15,945 nt of DNA from a bacterium (GTDB lineage: Bacteria; BMS3Abin14): positions 1-15,945 of the forward strand of contig JARGFV010000055.1 of NCBI GenBank assembly GCA_029210545.1, read 5' to 3'. The notes under the pieces were generated by a model. That model saw only the letters and a program-made list of their open reading frames with translations, was not told the origin of the DNA and searched no databases. Position 1 is the first letter of the stretch, and every line of letters starts with the position of its first letter. The translations under genes were made by a program, and so were the position numbers. Below are positions 3,747 to 5,667 of the stretch, piece after piece.

Positions 3747-4172
3747 ATGAAAAAAGCTACTGGGATAGCGATGGTTTTCACTTTATGTGCGATGATTATG
3801 ATGCCTGCGTTGGCCAACGCGGAGAATGGACGAATAACTTTTTTCCAGGGAGAGTTTGAAAAGGGAGAATGGTCGGGATCCTTTTACATTAGCCCGAGGG
3901 CCACCGATCTTTCCATTAAGGTTGAAAACGGTACTGTACGTGTAACGAGTGCGTTGATTGTCATTGACGGCAAACAAATATTCAAACAGAGTGATTTTAA
4001 CCAGGATGTTGGAGAGCTTAAAAAAACTCTTGTGGGTTTTGTTGGAGCCTTGCCGATTTCGGTTACTGTTAACGGAAATAAAGCGGCTACAATGTCCGTT
4101 GAGATCACAGGAGTAATCGGATCCACCTTTCCAAGAAATTTAACTGGAATTACAACCTTCCCGGGTCGGTGA
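3747..4172 (+). CDS. Small secreted protein of unknown function
   Basis: I do not recognise a named family. The 141-aa product starts at ATG 3747 after a near-ideal Shine-Dalgarno (gggagg, 3734-3739). The first 26 residues are a clear signal peptide: Lys-Lys start, hydrophobic stretch TGIAMVFTLCAMIMM, and ALANA just before the likely cleavage site. The mature part of about 115 aa has alternating hydrophobic strands and no Cys or transmembrane helix, suggesting a small beta-sandwich. The stretch with IVIDGKQIFKQSDFNQDV and the later ISVTVNGN...VEITG resembles, from memory, surface domains of the type INGxxxxxxSDFNQ...VEVxGKPG seen in deltaproteobacterial exported proteins; that link is tentative. 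Base composition and codon choice (many aaa, att, gtt codons) are clearly AT-richer than in flanking genes, which suggests acquisition from elsewhere. It appears to be a single-gene unit. Confidence 0.8.
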   Translation: MKKATGIAMVFTLCAMIMMPALANAENGRITFFQGEFEKGEWSGSFYISPRATDLSIKVENGTVRVTSALIVIDGKQIFKQSDFNQDVGELKKTLVGFVGALPISVTVNGNKAATMSVEITGVIGSTFPRNLTGITTFPGR

Positions 4173-4199
4173 TGTCTATATAGTGGTGTAAGAAGGGAC

Positions 4200-4349
4200 G
4201 TCGCAAAAAGTCCAATCCGGGACTTTTCGCTCCACGGAAAGGGAAAAGCGTCGTTTTCCCTTTCCTTACAAATCAATGACTTGCGGTGCCGGTCATTGAT
4301 TTGGGCGCCCCGCGCGGGGCGCGTTGATGACTTTTTGCGAAGTCATCAA
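4200..4349 (+). repeat. Five-hairpin repeat element, copy A
   Basis: This is a 150-bp unit whose reverse complement recurs at 4924-5073 with one mismatch. It folds as five successive hairpins: 4203-4213 with 4220-4230 (10 of 11 pairs); ggaaagggaaaa 4236-4247 with ttttccctttcc 4254-4265; aaatcaatgac 4270-4280 with gtcattgattt 4292-4302; the perfect palindrome gcgccccgcgcggggcgc 4305-4322; and gttgatgact 4323-4332 with agtcatcaac 4341-4350. The 11-mer cgcaaaaagtc (4202-4212) returns inverted at 4329-4339, giving the unit near-terminal inverted repeats. Nothing in it codes. It fills much of the 340-nt gap between the secreted protein and ridA. A short second start, gtcgcaaaaa plus ccgga (4356-4370), follows as a possible remnant of another copy. 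Confidence 0.9.
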
Positions 4350-4409
4350 CGTTAAGTCGCAAAAACCGGATTTAATCACTTTTGATCATTACCGAAATCA
4401 AATAGTATT

Positions 4410-4445
4410 GCGGGAGGCTTTTTCAAAGCCTCCCGCTTTCTATTT
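4410..4445 (+). terminator. Strong intrinsic terminator upstream of ridA
   Basis: gcgggaggcttt (4410-4421) pairs perfectly with aaagcctcccgc (4425-4436) around a 3-nt loop, followed by tttctattt. This is a strong + strand rho-independent terminator. It would stop transcription coming from the secreted protein or through repeat copy A, leaving ridA to start from a promoter in the 67 nt that remain, or from elsewhere. Confidence 0.82.
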
Positions 4446-4512
4446 ACAGAAATGATCGGGTATGTGTGCCAGGAATGAAAAGCCTGTTTTCTGAATCCGA
4501 GGAGGATTAATA

Positions 4513-4893
4513 GTGAAAAGGCATGTCGTTTCCACTGAAAGTGCCCCCGCCGCCATCGGACCGTACAGCCAGGCTGCTGTCTACGGCAATCTCGTTTTCT
4601 GTGCCGGCCAGATCCCCCTGGACCCCGGGACAGATCAGCTTGTCGAGGGTGATATCGTGACCCAGGCAAGGAGGGTCATCGATAACATCGAGGCGGTCCT
4701 GGCCGCAGCCGGCAGCAGCCTGGAGAAAGTTCTCAAGCTGGAGGTCTTCCTGATCGATCTGGCGGATTTTCCGGAGGTCAACAGTTACTTGGCCGGGATC
4801 TTTACTTCAGATCCTCCGGCGAGGGTCACCATAGGTGTGTCCGCTCTCCCCATGGGGGCGAATATTGAAATGGCCGCGACCGCGGCGATCTAG
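4513..4893 (+). CDS. ridA: RidA family reactive intermediate deaminase
   Basis: RidA (YjgF/YER057c/UK114) hydrolyses reactive enamine/imine intermediates such as 2-aminoacrylate released by PLP enzymes, protecting metabolism; it works as a trimer in the cytosol. The 126-aa product has the usual length. Recognisable parts are the N-terminal APAAIGPYSQAA (11-22), NLVFCAGQIPLDP (26-38), KLEVFLIDLADFPEVN (75-90) and the signature PPARVTIGVSALPMGANIEM (101-120). This last contains the conserved Arg (R104) that binds the substrate carboxylate and the conserved Glu (E119). Translation starts at GTG 4513, supported by gaggagg at 4499-4505 with a 7-nt spacer. The gene stands alone between two inverted copies of a 150-bp structured repeat. 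Family assignment is firm; the exact substrate is not readable from the sequence. Confidence 0.94.
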   Translation: MKRHVVSTESAPAAIGPYSQAAVYGNLVFCAGQIPLDPGTDQLVEGDIVTQARRVIDNIEAVLAAAGSSLEKVLKLEVFLIDLADFPEVNSYLAGIFTSDPPARVTIGVSALPMGANIEMAATAAI

Positions 4894-4905
4894 CCGTCGC
4901 TTGAT

Positions 4906-4927
4906 TCAAAATTCTGTAGAATTTTGA
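4906..4927. repeat. Hairpin after ridA abutting repeat copy B
   Basis: tcaaaattct (4906-4915) pairs perfectly with agaattttga (4918-4927) with a 2-nt loop. It begins 12 nt after the ridA stop and runs directly into the repeat element, so it is effectively a sixth hairpin of this copy. No T-run follows on the + strand. It may cap the ridA transcript. Confidence 0.6.
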
Positions 4928-5073
4928 TGACTTCGCAAAAAGTCATCAACGCGCCCCGCGCGGGGCGCCCAAATCAATGACCTGCACCGCAAGTCATTGA
5001 TTTGTAAGGAAAGGGAAAACGACGCTTTTCCCTTTCCGTGGAGCGAAAAGTCCCGGATTGGACTTTTTGCGAC
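4924..5073 (-). repeat. Five-hairpin repeat element, copy B (inverted)
   Basis: This is the reverse complement of the unit at 4200-4349, 150 bp with a single difference (the loop of the third hairpin has tgcaggtc here versus tgccggtc in copy A, on the same reading strand). All five hairpins are preserved. With copy A it makes a 150-bp inverted repeat separated by 574 bp that includes all of ridA. It occupies the first half of the gap between ridA and rpmB; the second half holds the rpmB terminator and a heptamer-repeat tract. Confidence 0.9.
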
Positions 5074-5078
5074 CCTGT

Positions 5079-5109
5079 TTTGAATATTAAAAAGACCCCT
5101 GACGGGGTC
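5079..5109 (-). terminator. Intrinsic terminator of rpmB (minus strand)
   Basis: Read on the minus strand, gacccc (5104-5109) pairs with ggggtc (5094-5099) around gtca, followed by ttttt and aatattc. This is a normal rho-independent terminator lying about 145 nt after the rpmB stop. On the + strand the same stem lacks a T-run, so it serves the minus strand. Confidence 0.75.
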
Positions 5110-5445: not shown

Positions 5446-5558
5446 GGTAACCTCCCGAGGGTTTTGAACCTCCCGCTGTTGGCTTTTGTGTTGCGGGAAA
5501 AGACCTGCATTGCTACCATAACCACAGAGAAGAAGCAAGTACACTTATCCAGTGTCAA

Positions 5559-5580
5559 GTGCAGAGCGCAGCGTGCAGAG
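5559..5580. repeat. 7-nt repeat tract, left arm of an inverted pair
   Basis: Units gtgcaga, gcgcagc and gtgcaga run in phase. The tract is largely complementary to the gcactct tract at 5617-5651, so the two can form a stem with a 36-nt loop. It lies between rpmB and the divergent DUF1858 gene. Confidence 0.65.
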
Positions 5581-5616
5581 GGATAATGGGATGCCGGACA
5601 TGGAGAAATTGGGCCT

Positions 5617-5651
5617 GCACTCTACACTCTACACTCTGCACTCTGCACTCT
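5617..5651. repeat. Five-unit 7-nt tandem repeat (gcactct/acactct)
   Basis: Five uninterrupted units: gcactct, acactct, acactct, gcactct, gcactct. This is the cleanest 7-nt tract in the window. It ends 2 nt before the Shine-Dalgarno (gtgaggg, 5654-5660) of the next gene, so any change in unit number would alter the leader of that gene. Confidence 0.85.
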
Positions 5652-5667
5652 TTGTGAGGGTAACGCC

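Follow-up and report, generated by a model that had tools for sequence, protein, structure and literature searches.

The inverted repeats around ridA as copies of an abundant, modular MITE with a candidate IS1182-like parent

The two inverted repeats that frame ridA in the window (the whole 15,945-nucleotide stretch analysed here) are, with high confidence, copies of a high-copy MITE, a non-autonomous DNA transposon. A non-autonomous mobile element was one of the readings offered in the preliminary description, and it is now backed by hundreds of copies, terminal inverted repeats (TIRs), 6-bp duplications and an insertion sequence with the same ends. The elements have the properties by which MITEs are recognized: they are short (46-564 bp, too small for a transposase gene), end in TIRs, produce a target duplication, lie in many dispersed intergenic copies and have ends in common with an IS1182-like element. 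MITEs as a kind are already known; this family is new, and a literature search with partial coverage found no description of the element. The host bacterial family is uncultured and little studied, and the element adds to it a clean MITE of very high abundance, whose target is defined and for which there is a candidate parent. Its hairpin modules covary and multiply, so that it could serve to study why MITEs keep secondary structure.

Table 1. Features of the ridA locus, in window coordinates
Feature	Position	Strand	Remarks
MITE copy 1, A-to-E orientation	4194..4347	+	154 bp; boundaries by comparison with other copies
Hairpin A of copy 1	4203..4230	+	includes left terminal inverted repeat
Hairpin B of copy 1	4236..4265	+	stem GGAAAGGGAAAA/TTTTCCCTTTCC
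Hairpin C of copy 1	4269..4303	+	stem CAAATCAATGAC/GTCATTGATTTG
Hairpin D of copy 1	4305..4322	+	perfect GCGCCCC/GGGGCGC palindrome
Hairpin E of copy 1	4323..4350	+	right terminal inverted repeat, palindromic in itself
GTCGCAAAAA	4356..4365	+	possible remnant of another element end
Terminator-like hairpin	4410..4436	+	12 pairs, then TTTCTATTTA; between copy 1 and ridA
ridA (Pfam Ribonuc_L-PSP)	4513..4893	+	native place and orientation, outside the element
MITE copy 2, inverted	4926..5079	-	154 bp; boundaries by comparison with other copies

Ends, target site and distribution of the element

Comparison of flanks defined a full unit running from GATAGGGTCGCAAAAAGTC to GACTTTTTGCGAAGTCATC, ~154 bp long (mostly 152-155 bp), with terminal inverted repeats of ~19 bp and the consensus GAYRGnnTCGCAAAAAGTC. 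The inverted 11-mers noticed earlier near the ends (CGCAAAAAGTC) are real and belong to these longer repeats. The genome that contains the window has 427 TIR ends at ≤1 mismatch, compared to 0 for the reversed pattern, and the TIRs occur as inward pairs.

Target duplications, suggested from the outset as a sign of mobility along with empty sites, were scored in the 121 elements with both flanks. Exact 6-bp direct repeats flanked 45 of these, compared to a mean of 2.4 and a maximum of 7 when flanks were permuted. The duplication length is specifically 6, with lengths 3-5 and 8-10 not beyond chance, and the target consensus is TC-AANNTT-GA. Beside the 45 direct matches there were 8 inverted ones, no more than the 8 that are self-palindromic. 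The comparison for empty sites succeeded in part: at one site compared between congeners (G004 against G009) the flanking DNA runs across without the element, giving a near-empty site, and a fully clean empty site was sought between G003 and G011 and not obtained, as the intergenic DNA there had otherwise diverged.

The mobile reading had been made to depend on the unit recurring in its genome (2.72 Mb, 241 contigs), and roughly 200-250 copies are present. A first look gave 371 candidates, the 40 scored as copies had 93-100% identity, and 33 element places in a 367-kb sample correspond to ~245 per genome. Mapping of these 33 places put 2 inside open reading frames. Element contexts track the supply of intergenic DNA, the neighbours are all kinds of genes, and where genes stand in tandem 29 elements are opposite to them and 21 in the same orientation, with no bias. 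A gene-level RNA device is therefore unsupported, since the element does not align with gene orientation and its contexts follow intergenic supply.

Of 11 further genomes from this bacterial family, 10 carry the element, compared to 0/49 genomes searched from other families; searched viral contigs contained neither the element nor its parent. Copies from G000, G003, G006 and G011 are intermingled across genera, at 92-97% identity, and copies in other genera are 95-97% identical to those of the window's genome, compared to a sequence match of ~71-75% for the genes compared between a G003 stretch and G000. These sequence identities suggest recent horizontal spread between genera as the natural reading, with the caution that metagenome contigs may be cross-binned. 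The sampled stretches include 12 contig ends, and seven of these fall inside copies (L061, L067, L068, L070, L071, L076, L078), indicating that the repeats probably broke the assembly, with the element accounting for much of its fragmentation.

A candidate parent of the IS1182 type

The parent of the MITE is probably an insertion sequence of IS1182-like type, whose ends match its own. The window's own genome holds a 520-codon DDE transposase reading frame between TIR-type ends, GACGGCATCGCAAAAAGTA (also written GACGGCATCGCAAAAAGTATC) and GATGGACCCGCAATTAGTC, and the end pattern of the IS1182-like element is GAYGG....CGCAAAAAGT. The candidate parent transposase falls close to the IS1182 family (NCBIfam NF033551, Pfam DUF772 + DDE_Tnp_1), and the ends around it match those of the MITE. 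The transposase matched NF033551 with E 1.6e-33 and a score of 116 bits, below the curated cut-off of 270 and obtained on a copy with an internal deletion. In G009 and in G007, which appears from a transposase match to be the MAG SZUA-204, homologous 5' ends of the insertion sequence carry this TIR too and border directly on AATAAT and AAGGTT; in all, 4 of 5 insertion-sequence junctions abut AANNTT or AANNAT. IS1182-like relics occur in three genera and all are defective: the own-genome copy has a 229-bp deletion covering the stretch around the Glu presumed to be catalytic (a role taken from the family motif), the remaining two show a frameshift or a truncation, and no intact transposase of this type was found.

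When other transposase loci (PF01609, PF01797, PF05598) were checked for TIRs, the IS1182-like element alone fit. An IS1634 transposase of the same genome was considered as a parent and proved to be an insertion victim instead, its gene being broken by an element copy at a contig end (L159 1291-2121). A 2.4-kb TIR-bounded interval in G004 was likewise set aside, as it contains a host histidine kinase (named from sequence) between two elements. A search for a relative among solved structures found none. The nearest transposase among plasmid records, from Microvirga and 36% identical, shows the same TIR shape (GACGGGGCGGTAAAAAGT), which ties the TIR type to the transposase type. Unlike the MITE, this relative lies within an inverted repeat and is not flanked by a target duplication, and the parent is therefore assigned with less confidence than the MITE itself.

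We propose that the elements were cut or copied by a DDE transposase acting in trans and encoded by an IS1182-like insertion sequence that shares their ends. It is possible, though not likely, that the same MITE was moved by some other, unseen transposase with similar ends and that the IS1182-like relics are cousins. The lack of an intact IS1182-like copy would fit such a history, as would the report that IS1272, of the IS1182 family, replaces inverted repeats without duplications (PMC5678879), in contrast to the 6-bp duplications of the present MITE, a difference that extends to the Microvirga relative. The close TIR identity at both ends, the AANNTT or AANNAT junctions and the finding that no other checked transposase locus has its own paired TIRs point back to the IS1182-like parent.

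Similar elements have been described in other bacteria. The Chunjie MITE of Geobacter uraniireducens, 235 bp long with 38 full copies in one genome (PMC10969869), also combines TIRs and duplications with dozens of intergenic copies of variable size; it is a different element, likened here by description only. ERIC, which reaches up to 711 copies in Photorhabdus, and the Correia elements are strongly structured intergenic MITEs present in high copy number (PMC10969869), again likened by description, and from unrelated hosts.

The BIME-like structural repeat entertained in the preliminary description, which would be a REP/BIME-type repeat spread by a RAYT (Y1 HUH) transposase, is highly improbable. 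The repeats are palindromic and intergenic as it would predict, and the genome does have Y1 transposases, one of which, a RAYT-like gene, is ~840 bp from an element copy (L180, G000:C150), probably by chance. To our knowledge, REP elements have neither DDE-type TIRs nor direct target duplications, and we reject this reading because true TIRs and direct 6-bp duplications are both present. The other examined Y1 loci are without a paired canonical TIR, bar L185, where a Y1 fragment of 76 aa has a short TIR pair ~1.2 kb away.

Hairpin modules and size variants

Each unit contains five adjacent hairpins, A-E, as originally described. Folded as RNA, the unit has an MFE of -81.7 kcal/mol, whereas shuffles averaged -45.4 (z -9.0, 0/200 shuffles), and folding as DNA is also more stable than shuffles (z -8.2). 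An Rfam search with the unit returned chance matches only (E 0.63), none above the gathering score. Across 56 copies drawn from 11 genomes, standard pairs make up 92.8% of the cells in 53 pairs, and double-change cells number 75 compared to 26.6 after shuffling (0/500), while every slid control scored far lower than the real stem pairing. In the copy at L067, the whole stem of hairpin C has been replaced by a different complementary stem.

The stem structure is thus maintained, via selection within the element or template-switch homogenisation of quasi-palindromes, and these compensatory changes support the selection on structure proposed earlier, or else a homogenisation of structure. We suggest that the hairpins are the element's own properties, which may aid transposition or tolerance, rather than devices acting on ridA, and that selection and/or template-switch repair would keep them palindromic.

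Forms with the same ends include smaller (46 and 133 bp) and larger (166-564 bp) ones, and modules can be lost or multiplied. Large forms contain A-B modules in tandem multiples; the 564-bp form (L070 3802-4362) has the A-B module ~5 times plus extra C-D modules, with both terminal repeats kept. Folding of the leader of the insertion sequence as a source of modules A and B gave no significant structure. This modular behaviour resembles that of BOX elements from Streptococcus pneumoniae, intergenic repeats with fixed ends, variable hairpin modules and stable folds (PMC3049150). BOX elements differ in their ends, modules and host, the likeness drawn here being one of behaviour, whereas TIRs and 6-bp duplications are demonstrated for the present MITE. 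A more elaborate scheme, rather unlikely as a whole, would have five independent covarying hairpin cassettes, open to multiplication and swapping, driven by an IS1182-like transposase, a type known to insert into inverted repeats, with the hairpins perhaps gathered by repeated self-targeting and perhaps with horizontal spread between genera.

Solo 22-bp palindromes of the GATGACTTTTTGCGAAGTCATC type (the E module) were also seen directly beside full elements, at L080 16537-16559 and L121 ~2246-2270.

Two element copies around ridA

The arms at 4200-4349 and 4924-5073 form an inverted repeat of 150 nt with 149/150 positions identical (99%) by alignment, which reproduces the single difference reported at first. 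Comparison with other copies corrected this 150-bp unit to the approximate element boundaries in Table 1. At the A end of copy 1 the outer 6 bp are altered (AGGGAC in place of GATAGG), the right flank is AACGTT and the target duplication is no longer present. Copy 2 has a changed last base (CCTGTT in place of CCTGTC), and its flanks, AATTTT on the inner side and TTGAAT on the outer, are without an intact target duplication.

The near identity of the pair is nothing special. Several unlinked copy pairs reach 99.3% identity, and copy 1 has an exact (100%) match on another contig, which makes the gene conversion once proposed between copies 1 and 2 superfluous. Nor is a close pair surprising, because elements occur every 8-11 kb; a second such pair, 305 bp apart, is present in the sampled stretches. 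The framing of ridA by two elements is incidental and ridA itself is not special, and we read the pair as what would be two independent insertions flanking a gene that never moved.

A conserved structured RNA, a purposeful regulator of ridA or a switch that inverts ridA could account for the strong folds, the covariation and the symmetrical pair, yet we give such readings very little credence. Elements on both sides of ridA were found in 0/10 relatives. In every relative whose ridA neighbours lie in the compared DNA, the genes follow the order relA-ridA-(rpmB reversed)-recG with ridA pointing the same way, and the inversion by recombination that had been envisaged was not seen. The variety of neighbouring genes and the lack of orientation bias genome-wide also speak against these readings, as does the terminator-like hairpin between copy 1 and ridA. 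The idea of a transcript with a 150-bp double-stranded stem and ridA in its loop fares no better: a strong terminator hairpin precedes ridA, so that transcription is unlikely to run through both copies, and the stem is unlikely because each copy would sooner pair with itself. A composite transposon of two MITEs with ridA as cargo, for which the two inverted copies with outward-facing TIRs around one gene might be taken, is almost certainly wrong, given that the outer duplication does not match and that ridA in relatives adjoins relA and/or rpmB, as here.

Two further features of the window were recorded. Between relA and ridA (3747-4172) is a gene for a small predicted secreted protein, without a Pfam match and not at this place in relatives. 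Intergenic tandem repeats of ~7-base units (CACTCTG/CACTCTA, CAACCCT, GAGGTTT), often adjoining elements, occur at 5551-5655 of the window and in the flanks of L014, L191 and L126.
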